Source: an uncultured Rhodospirillaceae bacterium
GTDB lineage: Bacteria; Pseudomonadota; Alphaproteobacteria; UBA8366; GCA-2717185
Reading direction: 5' to 3'
Length of the DNA: 41,251 nucleotides
Assembly (NCBI GenBank): GCA_913044215.1
Contig: CAJWOT010000008.1
Span: 1-41,251 of the forward strand
Shown here piece by piece: positions 15,971 to 26,305 of this stretch. Under the pieces are notes generated by a model. The model saw only the letters and a program-made list of their open reading frames with translations. It did no database searches and was not told the origin of the DNA. Made by a program: the position numbers and the translations under genes. Within the stretch, counting starts at the first letter, position 1, and each line of letters starts with the position of its first letter.

Positions 15971-16306
15971 ATGATCTACAAAATCTGCACCGAAAGCGAA
16001 TGGGCGGGCGCGGAGACGCAGGGCGCGTTCACCGGCAGTCCGGTCGATCTCGCCGACGGTTTCATCCATTTCTCCACCGCCGAACAGGTCGAGGAGACGG
16101 CGCGGCGCCACTTTGCCGGCCAGACCGATCTGGTGCTGGTCACCGTCGACTCGGATAAGCTCGGAGATGCGCTGAAATGGGAGCCGTCCCGCGGCGGCGC
16201 CCTGTTTCCGCATCTCTACGGCGCGTTACCGACCGACGCAGTGGTTTCGGTGTCACCCTTGCCCTTAGACGAGGGGGGCGGGCACCGGTTTCCAGAAACG
16301 CTCTAA
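15971..16306 (+). CDS. DUF952 domain-containing protein
   Basis: 111 aa; MIYKICTESEWAGAETQGAFTGSPVDLADGFIHFSTAEQVEETARRHFAGQTDLVLVTVD matches the DUF952 pattern. Confidence 0.88.
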   Translation: MIYKICTESEWAGAETQGAFTGSPVDLADGFIHFSTAEQVEETARRHFAGQTDLVLVTVDSDKLGDALKWEPSRGGALFPHLYGALPTDAVVSVSPLPLDEGGGHRFPETL

Positions 16307-16893
16307 CCGCCGACCCACAGGCTCCACACCGCCAGAAGGGGCGTATCGTAGGACCGCATGCCGTGCAGGATGTTGGGCACGTTGTGCACCGTGCCGCCCA
16401 GTCCCGGCTTGCGCCAGGCGCCTTCGTTCTGCCGCCAGGCACCGTCGGACAGGACGGCGTAGATTTCCTCCGGCGGGTGCGTGTGGTCGGGGTAGTGTGT
16501 GTTGGGGGCGACCAGGCTGACGCCGATGCGCACATCGTTGCGCTGCTCGATGCCGTCGACACCGACGACCACCGCATTGGCGTGGTTGGCGCGGAAATGC
16601 TCGTCACCGACCGGTTTTATAATCCAGGTGAGCTGTGGTTCGACGGCGGCGAACGCTGCTCCGAGCTGCACCGTGCGGTCGGGGCCGGCCTTGGCGTTCT
16701 CGAACGCGGCCGGCAGGTGATCGCAGACCGGCAGCCGTTTCGCGGTCGGCGGTTCCTGCCTGCCGTCCTCGGCGGCCAGCGCGTCGAAGATGCGCGTCGC
16801 CGCCGGTTTGGCGGCGTCGGGAAGGTCACCTTCGAAGACGGCTTGCTGCAGCGAGTCGATGAAGTGCTGCAGTGCCGGTGATCGTTTCGTCAT
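16303..16893 (-). CDS. Dimethylsulfoniopropionate-lyase-family cupin protein (DddQ/DddL-like fold)
   Basis: 196 aa from ATG 16893; NANAVVVGVDGIEQRNDVRIGVSLVAPNTHYPDHTHPPEEIYAVLSDGAWRQ...NVPNILHGMRSYDTPLLAVWSLW retains H-x-H-x3-E-x-Y and a downstream His. Confidence 0.75.
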   Translation of the reverse strand: MTKRSPALQHFIDSLQQAVFEGDLPDAAKPAATRIFDALAAEDGRQEPPTAKRLPVCDHLPAAFENAKAGPDRTVQLGAAFAAVEPQLTWIIKPVGDEHFRANHANAVVVGVDGIEQRNDVRIGVSLVAPNTHYPDHTHPPEEIYAVLSDGAWRQNEGAWRKPGLGGTVHNVPNILHGMRSYDTPLLAVWSLWVGG

Positions 16894-17744
16894 GCCGGTC
16901 CAAGCTCCTTGTCGCTGTAAATACCGTTCGGCTTGAGGGGGCTGTTCGCGAAGACGTTCTGGCCGGTCTTGCGTGACGTGTTGCGCCAGGCCGCCAATTC
17001 GTTTTCCCCGAATTCTTCCTGCGGTGACGGATCGATATCGACGCGGCCATAGGTATCGACGCCGCGCACCAGCATGCCGGAATCGCGGTGCGCCCGAACC
17101 TCCACATGGGTTGGCATCATTTCGACCAGCAGGACGATGCGCCGGTTTTCTGCGGTGTTGACACCCGAACTGTGGATGGCCTGTGCGTTGAACAGGCCGA
17201 TTTCGCCGGCCTTCAGCGGCATTTCGACGGCTTGAGATTCGTCGAAACCCTCCGGGATGTATTGGCCTCGGGTCAGGATGCTCTCCGGATTGCCGGTGTC
17301 GATATGGTCCAAGGTGCCGGTCTTGTGCGACCCGGGAATGACCTTGAGGCAGCCATGATCGAGCGTGCAATCGGCCAATGCCAGCGCGCCGATTACGAGG
17401 ATCGGCCGGATCGGGTTGTGCGCGCCGTCCTGATGCCAACCCGCATGGGTCTTGCCGTCCGGCTCCTTGATGCGGAAGGCCATGCTGTAACACAGGATGT
17501 TCGGGCCGATCAGGTCCTCGTAGACGTCGAGGATTCCATCATGCCGCGCGATTTCCTCGACCCAAGGGCAGAGCAGGTGCGATTTGCTCTTCAGCTTCAA
17601 CCGGTCGTCTGGAAACTTCGCCTCGAAGGCTTCCAGACGAGCTCGGAAATAGGCGATTTCGTCCGGCGACAAGGCTGGGACGGGTGACAGGTATCCCTGT
17701 TCGTGAAAATGGTCGATCTGCGTTTGGGTGAGCGCTTTTGGCAT
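16890..17744 (-). CDS. Phytanoyl-CoA dioxygenase (PhyH) family protein
   Basis: ATG 17744; TQTQIDHFHEQGYLSPVPALS...AGWHQDGAHNPIRP (HxD)...HGCLKVIPGSHK...HSSGVNTAENRRIVLLVEMMP. Overlaps both neighbours. Confidence 0.88.
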   Translation of the reverse strand: MPKALTQTQIDHFHEQGYLSPVPALSPDEIAYFRARLEAFEAKFPDDRLKLKSKSHLLCPWVEEIARHDGILDVYEDLIGPNILCYSMAFRIKEPDGKTHAGWHQDGAHNPIRPILVIGALALADCTLDHGCLKVIPGSHKTGTLDHIDTGNPESILTRGQYIPEGFDESQAVEMPLKAGEIGLFNAQAIHSSGVNTAENRRIVLLVEMMPTHVEVRAHRDSGMLVRGVDTYGRVDIDPSPQEEFGENELAAWRNTSRKTGQNVFANSPLKPNGIYSDKELGPA

Positions 17745-18511
17745 CACCGCAGGGCCCCGCCGCCATCGACGGAGAAGACGACGCCGTTGACCCAGCTCGC
17801 CTTGTCTGAGGCGAGGAAGGCGACGACATTGGCGCATTCTTCCGAGGTCCCGACCCGGCCGCCGGGGCCGGTCATCAATTCACGCCAACGGTTTTCGTCG
17901 CCGAACTGTTTCTTTGCATGAACCTTTTGCAGTGTGACCAGCCGCTCGGTCTCGATCGGTCCCGGATGGATACCGACGACACGGACACCATGGTCATAAC
18001 TCTCTCGCCCAAGCGCCCTTGTGAAGCCGGTCAGGCTGGAATTGCCCGCCGCGCCGGCGATGTAGTTGGGGCTCGGGCGCACCGCGGCGTTTCCCAGTAC
18101 GTTGACGATCACGCCGCTGCCACGCTTGCACATGGCGGGATAGATGATGCGGCTGATATTGATGTAGCCGAACACTTTCAGGTCCCAGGCCTCGCGCCAG
18201 GTCGCCTCGTCGATCATCTCGATATCGCCGGCTGGAATGGCGCCGGCATTGTTCACCAGGATATCGACATCCTTGCAGGCCTCGGCGAGCGCAGTCGCCG
18301 TGGCGCTATCGGCTAGGCTGCCGGCATGGACCGTGACCTGCGCACCGTACTTCGCATTGATGTCGTCGCGCGCCGCATTTAAATCGGCTTTGGTGCGCGA
18401 CGCGATGTGCAGCGAGCAGCCTTCCGCCGCGAGGACATGCGCGACGGCGAGACCGATGCCCTTCGAGGCACCGGTGACGAGGGCGGTCTTACCTGCGAGA
18501 CCGAGGTCCAT
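17744..18511 (-). CDS. SDR family oxidoreductase
   Basis: MDLGLAGKTALVTGASKGIGLAVAHVLAAEG (TGxxxGIG), NNAG, catalytic-region YIAGAAGNSSLTGFTRALG, VVFSVDGGGALR. Confidence 0.92.
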   Translation of the reverse strand: MDLGLAGKTALVTGASKGIGLAVAHVLAAEGCSLHIASRTKADLNAARDDINAKYGAQVTVHAGSLADSATATALAEACKDVDILVNNAGAIPAGDIEMIDEATWREAWDLKVFGYINISRIIYPAMCKRGSGVIVNVLGNAAVRPSPNYIAGAAGNSSLTGFTRALGRESYDHGVRVVGIHPGPIETERLVTLQKVHAKKQFGDENRWRELMTGPGGRVGTSEECANVVAFLASDKASWVNGVVFSVDGGGALR

Positions 18512-18526: not shown

Positions 18527-19753
18527 TTAGTCTGCGGTGCCGCTCTGCCGGTTGGGATAGTCGGGCAGGTCGAACTTGAAAATCCGTTTGGCGTTGAGGC
18601 CGAGGATTTTCGCCCGCTGCTCGTCGTTCATGTGGCTCATCGTCCGCTCGATCGCGGCGGCCGAATGCGGCCAGGTGCCCTCATGATGCGGGTAGTCGTT
18701 CGCCCACAGGAAGTTGTTCCACAGATCGTACTTCTCCGCCAACAGCAGGCCGGCTTCGTCTTCCTGGAAGCTGGCCGCGCCGTTCGAGCGGAAATAGTCG
18801 CTCGGCAGTCCCTGCAGCTTCGGCCTGACCCAGAAATGGTGCTTCTTGTAGGCCTCGTCCATTGCGTCGAGCACCCAGGGCACCCAGCCGATGCCGGCCT
18901 CGATCAGCGCGAAATGGATCTTCGGAAAACGCTCCAGCACGCCGGAGGAACAGAGGTTTGCCAACGGTTCGATAGTCGGTGAGAGCGAGTGGGTGACATA
19001 GTTGATCACCGCCCCGCCATTGCCCTTCGACGCGCGCGGATCGCGGCCCGTGGAAACGTGGAAGGTGATCGGCAGGCCCGTTTCCTCGATCAGCGCCCAC
19101 ATCGGGTCGAATACCGGCAAATTGTAGTTGTCGTGTTCGACGTCATGGGCGCCCCAGATCGGCTTGCACGGCAGGGTAAGCCCACGGAAACCCAGCGCGG
19201 CGACCCGCTCGATTTCCTTCATCGCGCCTTCCAGGTCGCCGGTCGCGATCGCGGCCATCGGCGAAACCGTGTTGTTATGGCTGCCGAACTCCTCCCAGGC
19301 CCATTCGTTCCAGACCTTGCACTGCGCCATTGCGAAGACCGGATCGGGCGTCGCCCACATGGCGAGTCCCTTGTTGGGGAACATGATCTCGGCATCGATG
19401 CCGTCATAGCGGTTGTCTTTGAGGCGATCTTCCAGCTTGGCGCCAGCCTTGCCGCGCACGCCGTCCTCGCCAAGCATGCGGAATTCCATCAGGCGCGCCT
19501 TGCGGTGACCTTCGGAGACGCGCCACTGCTTGCCGTCCTCGTCGGTAACGACACGGGGCAGGCGGTCGACATACTTCTTGTCGATGCGTTTCGCCCACAG
19601 ATCGTGCGGCTCGTTGGCGTGCGTGTCGGCGGAGATCATCAGATACTTTTCCGGGTCGTCCCGGTGCGCCGTGCGTATCCAGCCTTCGGGCCCCGGCGTC
19701 TCCGCCCGCCACAGATTTTCTTCGTTGGTTTCGTAGGCAACCTGTTCAGACAT
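18527..19753 (-). CDS. Amidohydrolase 2 family protein
   Basis: MISADTHANEPHDLWAKRI...LPITFHVSTGRDPRA...FALIEAGIGWVPWVLDAMDEAYKKHHFWV...WANDYPHHEGTWPHS; likely start is the internal Met at 19753. Confidence 0.9.
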   Translation of the reverse strand: MSEQVAYETNEENLWRAETPGPEGWIRTAHRDDPEKYLMISADTHANEPHDLWAKRIDKKYVDRLPRVVTDEDGKQWRVSEGHRKARLMEFRMLGEDGVRGKAGAKLEDRLKDNRYDGIDAEIMFPNKGLAMWATPDPVFAMAQCKVWNEWAWEEFGSHNNTVSPMAAIATGDLEGAMKEIERVAALGFRGLTLPCKPIWGAHDVEHDNYNLPVFDPMWALIEETGLPITFHVSTGRDPRASKGNGGAVINYVTHSLSPTIEPLANLCSSGVLERFPKIHFALIEAGIGWVPWVLDAMDEAYKKHHFWVRPKLQGLPSDYFRSNGAASFQEDEAGLLLAEKYDLWNNFLWANDYPHHEGTWPHSAAAIERTMSHMNDEQRAKILGLNAKRIFKFDLPDYPNRQSGTAD

Positions 19754-19768
19754 CTCGTTCTCTCCCAA

Positions 19769-20209
19769 TCAATCCGCAACTTGCCATTGGACCAGCGCGT
19801 AAGGCTGGTCGCCGTCATGCCGCTCTATTACCGCTTTCACTTTGGCGCCGATCGTAACCTCCTGCGCAGGATCGCCCAGCAGATTGCCGATCATGCGCAC
19901 ATTGCCCGCATCGGGCAGTTCGACGAGGACGACAATGTAGGGGCCATGATCCTTCAGCGCGCCATGCACCGGGTGCCAGGGGCGTTCCCAGCTATAGATC
20001 GTGCCTTCGCCTGTGACTTCGGTCCATTCCATGTTGAAGGAGTTGCAGTTGTGGCAGATCCATTCCGGTCCCCATTGCCAGGTTCCGCAATCGGCACAGC
20101 GCTGGACCATGATCTTGCCGTCCAGAAGCGCGTCCCAATAGGGCTTGTCGAGCCCGTCATTCATCGGAACGGGCGCGGGCAGGCCTTCCGGCAGATAGGT
20201 CTCGCTCAT
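19769..20209 (-). CDS. Zn-ribbon / OB-fold DUF35 (acyl-CoA-associated) protein
   Basis: 146 aa; CADCGTWQWGPEWICHNCNSFNMEWTEVTGEGTIYSWERPWHP (two CxxC); start overlaps the thiolase-like stop. Confidence 0.9.
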   Translation of the reverse strand: MSETYLPEGLPAPVPMNDGLDKPYWDALLDGKIMVQRCADCGTWQWGPEWICHNCNSFNMEWTEVTGEGTIYSWERPWHPVHGALKDHGPYIVVLVELPDAGNVRMIGNLLGDPAQEVTIGAKVKAVIERHDGDQPYALVQWQVAD

Positions 20210-21387
20210 AAGGTGGCCTCCGATCCCAGAATATCCGTGCTGACGTGATGGACCATCGGGCCCGCGATGCTGAGCGCGACGTCGGCCCCAGGCACCTGGT
20301 TCGGCGAGTCGCCGCGAATCTGGCGTACCGCTTCGATCTGCAGGCCGAGCCCGTGCATGTAACATTCCGCCAGATTGCCGCCGCTGGTGTTGAGCGGCAT
20401 CTTGCCGCCCGGCGCGGTCAGGTTCTCCAATTGGAAGAACTCGTTGCACTCCTCCGGTTCGCAGAAACCATGCTCGACCACCGCCATCATCACGCCGATA
20501 GTGAAGTTTTCGTAGCTTTGCACCACATCGACATCTTTCGGGCCGACGCCGGCCATCTCATAGAGGCGCGGTGCCAGGCTGGCGAAACTGGAGGATGGGA
20601 AATTGCTGGCGTTCATGACCGGCGCACCGCACCGATGGTCGGATCCTTGCGCCGCCCCCAGGATGTATGCGGGCTTCTGCTTCATATCCTTCGCTTTTTC
20701 GGCCGAGACGATAATGACTGCCGCCGCGCCGTCATTCTCCTGACAGCAGTCGAATAGCCGGCAAGGCTCGGCGATCCAGCGGGAGTCGTCGTATTTCTCT
20801 TCGGACAAGGGTCGGCCGTACATGACGGCGCGAGGGTTGTTCTGCGCATGGGTGTAGGACGCCATGGAGATGGCCCGAAGCACGCTGTGGTCGACCTTGT
20901 TCTCATGCATGAAGCGCATCGCGCGCATCGCATATTTCTGCAAGGGCGACATGACACCATAAGGCGACATGTAGGCCGGGTCGCCGCTCACTGCAGTGAC
21001 GGGCGGGGCCTTGCCGAAGCGTTGGAACTGGCCCTGCGCCAGCCCGCGAAAGGCGACGACGCAATCCGCCAGACCGACGGCGACCGCTGCCGCCGCGTTG
21101 CCGACGGCTGCCGCGACACCGCCGCCGCCGCCACCCCAATTCATGTTGGAATAGCGCAAATCGTTGATGCCGAGGGCCGCGGCAATCCGCGTCGGTTCGT
21201 TGCGGTCGTTGCTGTAAGACGCGAACCCGTCGATTTCCTTAGCGTCGATCCCCGCATCCTCGCAGGCGGCGAGGATTGCCTTGAGAACCAGGACGAATTC
21301 CGGGTCGGGCGATTGCCCATGCTTGTAATAGGTCGTTTCGCCGACCCCGACGATGGCGGTCTTGCCACGTAACGTTCGATCACTCAT
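20206..21387 (-). CDS. Thiolase-like (SCP-x / lipid-transfer type) protein, possibly a retro-aldolase subunit
   Basis: KTAIVGVGETTYYKHGQSPDPEFVLVLKAILAACEDAGIDAKEIDGFASYSND...DVVQSYENFTIGVMMAVVEHGFC...LNTSGGNLAECYMHGLGLQIEAVRQIRG; adjacent DUF35. Confidence 0.88.
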   Translation of the reverse strand: MSDRTLRGKTAIVGVGETTYYKHGQSPDPEFVLVLKAILAACEDAGIDAKEIDGFASYSNDRNEPTRIAAALGINDLRYSNMNWGGGGGGVAAAVGNAAAAVAVGLADCVVAFRGLAQGQFQRFGKAPPVTAVSGDPAYMSPYGVMSPLQKYAMRAMRFMHENKVDHSVLRAISMASYTHAQNNPRAVMYGRPLSEEKYDDSRWIAEPCRLFDCCQENDGAAAVIIVSAEKAKDMKQKPAYILGAAQGSDHRCGAPVMNASNFPSSSFASLAPRLYEMAGVGPKDVDVVQSYENFTIGVMMAVVEHGFCEPEECNEFFQLENLTAPGGKMPLNTSGGNLAECYMHGLGLQIEAVRQIRGDSPNQVPGADVALSIAGPMVHHVSTDILGSEATL

Positions 21388-23668: not shown

Positions 23669-26305
23669 TTAGAATTGCACTCGCGTTGTCGATGCGCCGT
23701 CGACGATCAGGTTCGCACCGCTGATATAGCTTGCTGCCGGGCTGGCGAGGAAGACCACGGCGTTCGCGACTTCCTCCGGCGTACCCAACCTACCAAAGGG
23801 ATTGCGCGACACGGCGGCCTCGTAAGCCTCCGGCGCTTCGCGTTTGCGCACGTCCCAGACACCGCCTTCGAAGAAGATTGCACCGGGTGACACGGTGTTG
23901 GCGCGGATGCCTTTGGCGCCGAGATTTGTGCTCAGCCCGGACAGGTAGTTGATCAATGCCGCTTTTACGCCGCTATAGGCACGGACGCCACCCGACGTGT
24001 TCACTGCCGCAGTGCTGGCGATAGCGGTAATCGACGCGTCATCGGACTTTTCCAGGAACGGCACGGCGGCATCGACGGCCCGAACCGTGCCCAGAATGTC
24101 CACTTCCATGCCGACCCGCCAGGCATCCATGCTCGCCTGGCCGGCCAGCGCACTGGCGTTGGCGACGAGGATATCGAGACCGCCAAACGCGTCCGCCGTC
24201 TCACCGATCCAGTTCTGCAGACCGCTGTCGTCCGTTACATCGACGGCAGCCCCTTGCACGGTTGCGGCAGACCCGGACAGCGCGGCCACGCAGTCCTCTA
24301 CCTGGGCTTTGTCGCGGGCGCAGAAACCGACATGGCAGCCTTCCGCGGCAAGCAGATCGACGATCTTACGCCCGATACCCCGCGTGCCGCCGGTTACGAT
24401 CGCGCGTTTTCCCCCTAACCCCAGGTCCATTCTTGCCTCCCTTTGCTGCTGTTTTTGTCTGCCGTTAAATTGGCCACGCAAACGGCTGACGAGCGTTGTG
24501 ATGACGTGACTGATCAGGCGATCTTCTTCCGCCAGCCAGGACAGCCGATTCTTGAAGACTTCCTGCGGCACGACATAAAGCGTCGTGTCCTGCTTTGCCG
24601 TTGCCGTGGCCATGCGCGGTTCGTCGTCCACCAGGGCCATCTCGCCGAATACCTCTCCCCGGCCGAGCGTCGCGATGATCGTTCGCGCGTCCGCGTCGCC
24701 AACGGCGATATCGACTTCCCCTGACACGATGACGAACGCCTCGTCTCCAGGTTCAGATTCCCGGAAGATGGTCTCGCCTGCTTTGAACGCCCGGCTATTC
24801 TGGTCTTGCTTTGGTTTCTTGCGTTTCGGGGTCGGTTTCAGTGATGCCTTCTGCTCTTGCGACGGCACCTTTCGGTCGAGAAACCCGTCGAGCTTTTTGG
24901 TGATGAGCGCGCTGATCTCCTGACCGAGCTCATCTTCGCCGACGCGGAGGCGCAGATCGTCCACGGTGGCGGCCAACGCCTCGCGGGGGCTGTTCGGCGG
25001 CAAAAGGTCCGACAAGACGGTCAGCGACTCGACGATATCGAGAAGGCGCGTCAGGACCGGCGCCTGATACTTCACGCCGAACTCCGAATGGCTGAGGTCG
25101 AGCAGATAACCGATTTTGACGGCGTTTGTCGGCAACAGATTGAAAATGAATGCGATACCGTCATCCGCCGACAGGTCGCCATTCGCATCGCCCATGACAA
25201 TTCGGGCGCGGCGCGTCACCGCCTCGCAAATCTCCGGCCCGCCATGCAGTCCAGCGTGAGAGAGCAAGTCCTTGACGAGTTTGGGGAATGCCGTCCGGTC
25301 GGACGTTTCGTTCTCGCGCGTTAACGGGTTCGTGCCGGAGGTTTCCTTTGCGACCCGTTCGAGCAAGGTGCGCCGCGTCTCGACCATAGGAAATTTCTGC
25401 ATGGCCGCGTTGAGCCGGACGAGGTGGGTGTCGCGGCGGTGCTTGCCTTCGAAACGGCCGCCGGTGAGATTCGCCATGATACGAAGGGCGGTGGCCAAAT
25501 CCGGCTGTGGGCCAAGTATCTCCATGATCGCGCCCGAGCCGTCCAGGATTTCGGCGCAGAGCTCGTCGAGATAGCTGAGGGCCGTCGCGTCAGGGCGCTT
25601 GTTCATGAGATCGAGGACAAGCGTGAGTTTGCTCTCCCAGTCCCGCGCCTGCCCGAGAAACGCGGCCAGCGTCGCGCAGATATAGAATGGGCGCGCCTCT
25701 TCCGAAAAGGATGTGCCGATTACCCGCAGCGCCGGGGTAAGTCCGTCGCCGTTCGTGATCGACAGAAAACGGTCGGTTTCCCGCATCTCTCGCGTCTCAT
25801 CAAAGAGCTGCGTCGCCAGACGGTAAAGCAAGTCGATGCGCGTTTGCGCTGTCTCGCCCAGCGCCCGTGCTTGCACGGAGCCGACCTTGTGAATGGCCTG
25901 GTCGTAGAGTTTCTCGGTGCGGCGCAGTTCGCGGAAGTGATTGTGATCGTGCAGCACCTCAAGCGCCGTGAGATTGTACTCGTCGAGATATTTCCGCAGG
26001 ACCCGGCCCGCTGTTTTGCGGGCCTCGAAACCGGTCAGGTTTGACAGGGTGACGCAGATTGCGGCGTGGTCGATCGCGGATGCCGTGATAGGTCGATCGG
26101 GACGCGCTGCGCATTCCTGCTGGAAGATGACCTCTTCCTTGCGGTTGCCAGTCTCACGCGTGACCCGCACCGCATCATGCGGACCACCGGACAGCAGAGC
26201 CTGTGCCCGGGACATCGCAACCGTCTGCGCGATATGGATCGAATCGATCGTCCAGCGGCCGCCCGACTCGGTCTGCACCTCGTAACTGATCTCGGGCTGG
26301 TTCAT
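23669..26305 (-). CDS. Continuous ORF fusing a Crp-type cyclic-nucleotide-binding-domain protein to a C-terminal SDR; the SDR could be a separate gene starting at 24430
   Basis: AGETIFRESEPGDEAFVIVSGEVDIAV...GRGEVFGEMALVDDEPRMATATA (cNMP domain), then RQKQQQREAR-MDLGLGGKRAIVTGGTRGIGRKIVDLLAAEG (full 253-aa SDR). No stop between them. Confidence 0.85.
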   Translation of the reverse strand: MNQPEISYEVQTESGGRWTIDSIHIAQTVAMSRAQALLSGGPHDAVRVTRETGNRKEEVIFQQECAARPDRPITASAIDHAAICVTLSNLTGFEARKTAGRVLRKYLDEYNLTALEVLHDHNHFRELRRTEKLYDQAIHKVGSVQARALGETAQTRIDLLYRLATQLFDETREMRETDRFLSITNGDGLTPALRVIGTSFSEEARPFYICATLAAFLGQARDWESKLTLVLDLMNKRPDATALSYLDELCAEILDGSGAIMEILGPQPDLATALRIMANLTGGRFEGKHRRDTHLVRLNAAMQKFPMVETRRTLLERVAKETSGTNPLTRENETSDRTAFPKLVKDLLSHAGLHGGPEICEAVTRRARIVMGDANGDLSADDGIAFIFNLLPTNAVKIGYLLDLSHSEFGVKYQAPVLTRLLDIVESLTVLSDLLPPNSPREALAATVDDLRLRVGEDELGQEISALITKKLDGFLDRKVPSQEQKASLKPTPKRKKPKQDQNSRAFKAGETIFRESEPGDEAFVIVSGEVDIAVGDADARTIIATLGRGEVFGEMALVDDEPRMATATAKQDTTLYVVPQEVFKNRLSWLAEEDRLISHVITTLVSRLRGQFNGRQKQQQREARMDLGLGGKRAIVTGGTRGIGRKIVDLLAAEGCHVGFCARDKAQVEDCVAALSGSAATVQGAAVDVTDDSGLQNWIGETADAFGGLDILVANASALAGQASMDAWRVGMEVDILGTVRAVDAAVPFLEKSDDASITAIASTAAVNTSGGVRAYSGVKAALINYLSGLSTNLGAKGIRANTVSPGAIFFEGGVWDVRKREAPEAYEAAVSRNPFGRLGTPEEVANAVVFLASPAASYISGANLIVDGASTTRVQF

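Follow-up and report, generated by a model that had tools for sequence, protein, structure and literature searches.

An apparent operon on the minus strand of a 41,251-nucleotide stretch of DNA from an uncultured Rhodospirillaceae bacterium (hereafter the window) probably encodes an oxygenase and a retro-aldolase that act together on a CoA thioester. The aldolase is a thiolase-like protein that resembles the steroid side-chain aldolase Ltp2, and its clade, which carries the two catalytic tyrosines of Ltp2, is predicted from sequence to be coupled to an oxygenase and not, like Ltp2, to a hydratase, a pairing that appears to be new. Members of the clade are annotated as acetyl-CoA acetyltransferases or lipid-transfer proteins and their neighbours as amidohydrolases, annotations that hide both of the proposed pathway steps.

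The putative CoA-dependent retro-aldolase (393 amino acids; 20206..21387, minus strand) is a thiolase-fold protein with a Thiolase_C_1 match. It was aligned with solved thiolases (7yvy, 6esq and 7pxp) and with the solved aldolases Ltp2 (6ok1) and Sal (9myr). The thiolase nucleophile (EAAC-ASG in 7yvy and 6esq, QSAC-SAG in 7pxp) falls on Gly88 (codon 21124..21126, minus strand), within SNMNWGGGGGGVAAAVGNAAAAV (residues 80-102). The thiolase HDxF column reads Tyr292-Glu293-Asn294-Phe295, within DVVQSYENFTIG (residues 287-298), and the histidine of the GHP motif is replaced by Tyr343, within GGNLAECYMHG (residues 336-346). Tyr292 (codon 20512..20514, minus strand) aligns with the catalytic bases Tyr294 of Thermomonospora curvata Ltp2 (TcLtp2) and Tyr302 of Comamonas testosteroni Sal, while Tyr343 (codon 20359..20361, minus strand) aligns with Tyr344, the catalytic acid of TcLtp2. 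Asn294 (codon 20506..20508, minus strand) occupies the second catalytic Cys/Ala position of SCP2 thiolases, and stands in place of both His296 of Ltp2, which contributes to the oxyanion hole, and Cys304, the catalytic acid of Sal (PMC12329534).

Conservation at these columns was assessed in 80 named orthologous loci (65-100% identity). Glycine occupies the nucleophile column in all 80, where SCP2-type, BbsB and archaeal thiolases carry the nucleophilic Cys, and Y292, E293, N294, F295 and Y343 are likewise invariant in 80/80, the sole deviating alignment row at these columns being the Ltp2 reference, which is not an orthologue. This invariance is far beyond chance. Cysteines are present elsewhere in the protein (C214, C215 and C342, all invariant among the orthologues), so that the statement in the initial annotation that the protein has no Cys at the nucleophile position is valid for the catalytic positions and not for the whole protein; a relocated catalytic Cys was sought by alignment and found at neither thiolase Cys column. 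Gly88 and Asn294, together with Tyr292 and Tyr343, thus give the protein the two-Tyr set of Ltp2 without a Cys at either thiolase position. The two Tyr-containing motifs singled out in that annotation coincide with the two catalytic tyrosines of Ltp2, and its proposal of a retro-aldolase in place of a thiolase is supported as a prediction.

The Ltp2-ChsH2(DUF35) aldolase tops the solved-structure matches by both sequence (E 1.6e-68) and predicted fold (Foldseek TM about 0.86, for a model of mean pLDDT 82). However, against NF005892/PRK07855, a model of Ltp2-type proteins with a cut-off of 469 bits, the window protein scores 348.6 and three of its orthologues 346-362, versus 690 for TcLtp2, and the His of the Ltp2 YDHF motif is replaced by Asn294 in 80/80 orthologues. 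The distinguishing residues of Sal, an acid Cys in YDCY and a Gln at the column of Ltp2 Tyr344, are likewise replaced, by Asn294 and Tyr343. In a phylogenetic tree, the YENF proteins form one clade (SH-aLRT 100) beside the two-Tyr proteins of Ltp2 type and apart from Sal and the thiolases; this tree was a quick build without bootstrap, and long branches occur at several places outside the YENF clade, which leaves the precise branching around Ltp2 tentative. As judged from sequence, with a score below the curated cut-off and the change from YDHF to YENF, the window protein is a sister to Ltp2 that lies outside the Ltp2 subfamily. Elsewhere, the same genome encodes five further thiolase-like paralogues that lack the nucleophilic Cys and have a Y-D-x-F motif (L002-L006, on contigs C205, C129, C227, C14 and C29); DUF35 adjoins two of these, a PF04909 gene lies within about 1.5 kb of none, and several are similar to 4u4e, an uncharacterised ‘thiolase’ of Sphaerobacter.

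The start codon of the next gene overlaps the aldolase stop codon (ATGA), and the encoded protein (146 amino acids; 19769..20209, minus strand) is, as initially annotated, a Zn-ribbon DUF35 protein, in which a zinc ribbon (Pfam zf-ChsH2) is joined to an OB fold (OB_ChsH2_C), with the ChsH2 domain as its best match. It adjoins the aldolase in 80/80 orthologous loci, and its four zinc-ribbon cysteines, a feature of the Ltp2 partner, are kept in 79-80 of these. Genuine Cys thiolases also have DUF35 partners, including BbsAB, the archaeal acetoacetyl-CoA thiolase and PhlBC (PMC12329534), and the pairing alone is therefore not diagnostic of an aldolase. The DUF35 protein stands alone, with no MaoC domain, and no hydratase was found among the operon genes scanned, in contrast to the MaoC hydratase partner (ChsH1-ChsH2) of Ltp2. 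The earlier comparison with the Ltp2/ChsH2 arrangement of steroid degradation consequently holds for the two tyrosines and the DUF35 partner, but does not carry over to the substrate, given the unfused DUF35, the lack of an operon hydratase and the oxygenase-like neighbour described below.

That neighbour (18527..19753, minus strand; likely start ATG 19753) belongs to PF04909 and is annotated as an ‘amidohydrolase’, but homology, ligand conservation and predicted fold point to a dinuclear-metal monooxygenase of the PtmU3 type. Of the solved structures, PtmU3 matches it best by a wide margin (E 7.8e-62; 36% identity across 346 columns) and ranks first among matches to its predicted fold; weaker matches include gamma-resorcylate decarboxylase. 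All seven metal-ligand positions of PtmU3 are kept, as D48, H50, H237, E290, D358, H361 and E363 (numbered from the TTG-start open reading frame ending at 19768; subtract 5 for the ATG start), and all are invariant in those orthologues that have sequence at these columns. They comprise the D-x-H, H, E, D and H of the family together with the acidic residue of its binuclear members, which corresponds to Glu313 of PtmU3, a ligand reported as conserved in binuclear members only. PtmU3 itself has been described as a diiron beta-hydroxylase of diterpenoid (platensimycin/platencin) biosynthesis that accepts CoA-ligated substrates (PMC7782822), and PF04909 members of its kind have been named amidohydrolase-related dinuclear oxygenases (AROs), within a family that also contains decarboxylases, hydratases and hydrolases (PMC10811679). 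With PtmU3 as the closest relative and all seven ligands kept, the PF04909 protein is likely an oxygenase. The literature examined on PtmU3 and the AROs yielded no link between them and a thiolase-fold aldolase. A second PtmU3-like amidohydrolase, 38% identical to the window copy, is encoded in the same genome (L114; G000:C108:8031-9104), and the Caenibius tardaugens ‘amidohydrolase’ EGO55_16305, about 21-fold induced on cholate and located in a bile-salt side-chain cluster where its role is unexplained (PMC12882949), offers a lead only.

The order on the minus strand is aldolase, DUF35, PF04909 gene and an SDR oxidoreductase gene (17744..18511), the last two following after short gaps, and this close same-strand spacing suggests a single operon. 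Only near relatives (L010-L012) keep the SDR gene next to the module, so it is accessory at most. No dedicated electron donor for the oxygenase was seen in the operon. The wider window holds Mo-dependent dehydrogenases, an HpaB-type hydroxylase, a LigXa-type Rieske oxygenase and a CoA-transferase; with aromatic or xenobiotic-type catabolic genes in these surroundings, a link to a steroid pathway is not supported. Also on the minus strand, a 396-amino-acid protein with a C-terminal DMSP-lyase-like cupin domain (residues 232-388) is encoded at 16303-17493; its full-length relatives (58-60%, in L011 and L012) were recovered solely in near relatives. At 23669-26305 (minus strand), an 878-amino-acid protein combines a cyclic-nucleotide-binding domain (505-586) with a C-terminal SDR domain (633-870), its first ~500 residues having no Pfam match.

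Linkage of the predicted oxygenase to the aldolase-DUF35 pair was examined in neighbourhoods annotated by GC3-weighted ORF calling. Among the 80 loci, which are mutually related rather than independent samples and derive mostly from MAGs of unknown completeness, a PF04909 gene adjoins the pair in 42 (on the downstream side in 21, on the upstream side in the other 21) and is found within several kb in 6 more. The remaining 32 have no oxygenase gene nearby; a close copy is present elsewhere in the genome for 25 of these, while seven of the 32 genomes and G121 (99% complete) showed no recognisable PF04909 partner at high similarity. Beyond aldolase, DUF35 and oxygenase, a search for a wider conserved cluster found no gene common across loci, and several clusters contain CoA ligases or CoA-transferases along with uptake receptors, which supports catabolism of CoA esters.

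To allow for the relatedness of these loci, a second analysis used 191 genomes sampled evenly across the Alphaproteobacteria. The aldolase is present in seven and the oxygenase in eight, with both in six, always adjacent (Fisher p 3e-9, or 6e-8 without the window genome; several of the 191 genomes also underlie named loci, making this a different sampling and not fresh data throughout). In the two oxygenase-only genomes, the oxygenase adjoins an Ltp2-like protein of YDHF type and a DUF35 protein. A phylum search centred on the genome of L045 recovered one PtmU3 homologue beside a YDHF-type two-Tyr aldolase with DUF35 and another beside a YDGF relative; for most of the copies fetched in this search, the vicinity contained no thiolase-like gene. 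Sampling across Pseudomonadota for the oxygenase yielded two genomes only and added nothing.

A different enzyme accompanies the aldolase in Burkholderiales. All five plasmid or megaplasmid loci from this order (in Delftia, Variovorax, Burkholderia plantarii and Cupriavidus) encode aldolase orthologues of 60-65% identity with DUF35, together with CaiB-type CoA-transferases and a Rieske oxygenase, and none has a PF04909 gene. A VanB-type reductase is present in four of the five clusters, and the one Rieske protein examined, from Delftia, has a solved putative phthalate dioxygenase as a close relative. The enzyme has been swapped while the slot still contains an oxygenase, and such an exchange between non-homologous oxygenases argues for an aldolase that depends on a hydroxyl group introduced by an oxygenase. 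Such a sequence of reactions has precedent in ibuprofen degradation, where IpfDE cleaves an oxygenase-made hydroxy-CoA ester (PMC9195938).

We propose that the PtmU3-type oxygenase would use O2 to hydroxylate the beta-carbon of an acyl-CoA, as its homology and conserved ligands suggest, supplying the aldolase with its substrate. By alignment with Ltp2, whose catalytic residues have been tested by others, Tyr292 would take the proton of the beta-hydroxyl group, the C-alpha/C-beta bond would break, and the acyl-CoA enolate, held in an oxyanion hole, would be protonated by Tyr343, yielding a short acyl-CoA (acetyl- or propionyl-CoA) and a ketone or aldehyde. Asn294 may contribute to the oxyanion hole, an assignment that is a guess, since Asn replaces His296 of Ltp2 here and one plasmid homologue reads YDSF. 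By analogy with Ltp2 and Sal, DUF35 would complete the active-site wall and stabilise the aldolase. In steroid pathways the beta-hydroxyacyl-CoA is formed by a dehydrogenase and a hydratase; the oxygenase would take the place of both, a route that would suit beta-carbons beyond the reach of ordinary beta-oxidation.

Several other readings of this operon can be weighed against the oxygenase and retro-aldolase module. The aldolase might be correctly assigned and its PF04909 neighbour be a hydrolase or decarboxylase, acting on the aldolase product or on a parent compound, as the functional mixture within PF04909 (PMC10811679) and the weaker matches to gamma-resorcylate decarboxylase would allow; we consider this unlikely, since PtmU3 is so much the closest relative, the seven ligands include the acidic residue associated with binuclear members, and a Rieske oxygenase replaces the PF04909 protein in the five Burkholderiales loci. 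The oxygenase linkage, recurring in two gene orders, speaks against a plain Ltp2-type steroid side-chain aldolase acting on a hydrated steroid-CoA, beside an incidental amidohydrolase gene. Ltp2 is the closest characterised relative, and both tyrosines and DUF35 are kept, but the score falls short of the NCBIfam cut-off that TcLtp2 exceeds, YDHF has become YENF, DUF35 is not fused to MaoC, the operon has no hydratase gene, and the surroundings suggest aromatic or xenobiotic catabolism rather than that of steroids, all of which makes such an assignment quite improbable.

The aldolase could also run forward, joining an acyl-CoA enolate to a ketone or aldehyde to form a beta-hydroxyacyl-CoA: the reaction can in principle go either way, and the present evidence does not fix its direction. 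We regard this as very improbable, however, because the CoA-activating enzymes, uptake receptors and oxygenases to which the gene is linked point to a degradative role. The slenderest chance is that of a genuine thiolase or acyltransferase working through C214, C215 or C342: these residues are invariant in the orthologues, but TcLtp2, whose aldolase activity is proven, also has C214 and C215, neither of which lies near a thiolase Cys column; C342 corresponds to a Gly beside the GHP His; and the protein carries other residues at the two catalytic Cys columns and at the two His positions.

If the oxygenase and retro-aldolase module is real, it provides a testable function for a clade that extends over Alpha-, Beta- and Gammaproteobacteria, ties uncharacterised PF04909 proteins to acyl-CoA hydroxylation, and widens the upstream enzymes of Ltp2-like aldolases from hydratases to a second kind, oxygenases. 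It suggests a little-studied bacterial breakdown of acids on which ordinary beta-oxidation fails. On a broader view, to which we give about even chances, an oxidative retro-aldol module of this kind may be widespread, with an ARO or Rieske enzyme beta-hydroxylating an acyl-CoA that a dedicated two-Tyr aldolase-DUF35 clade then cleaves, as a general bypass of the dehydrogenase, hydratase and thiolase steps for substrates refractory to normal beta-oxidation.

Among known systems, Ltp2 of T. curvata has in common with the window protein a thiolase fold that has lost the nucleophilic Cys, a base Tyr in Y-x-x-F, an acid Tyr at the GHP-His position and a DUF35 partner with a Cys4 zinc ribbon. The two proteins are nevertheless only 37% identical and differ in subfamily and motif (YENF vs. 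YDHF); the DUF35 of Ltp2 is part of a MaoC-DUF35 hydratase subunit, whereas that of the window is separate, and the partner gene in the window encodes a predicted oxygenase in place of the hydratase of the steroid system. The Sal-Shy aldolase of C. testosteroni likewise combines a Cys-less nucleophile column and a base Tyr with a DUF35 partner, but Sal uses Cys304 as its acid and has Gln for the second Tyr, the zinc finger of Shy is C3H1 (PMC12329534), and Sal, 29% identical to the window protein, occupies a separate branch of the tree. BbsAB, SCP2 thiolases and the archaeal acetoacetyl-CoA thiolase share the fold and, in BbsAB and the archaeal enzyme, the DUF35 partner, yet have a nucleophilic Cys and the HDxF His where the window protein has Gly and Tyr.

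The PF04909 protein has a TIM barrel and the same seven ligand positions in common with PtmU3 and the AROs; at 36% identity to PtmU3, its oxygenase role is predicted from sequence. As in the proposed module, the thiolase-like retro-aldolase IpfD-IpfE of Rhizorhabdus wittichii MPO218 cleaves a hydroxylated CoA ester, releasing propionyl-CoA (PMC9195938), although its pathway uses a Rieske ring dioxygenase; the two systems are compared here in their reaction logic. It is the Burkholderiales loci, with their Rieske oxygenases, that look like the IpfD-IpfE arrangement.
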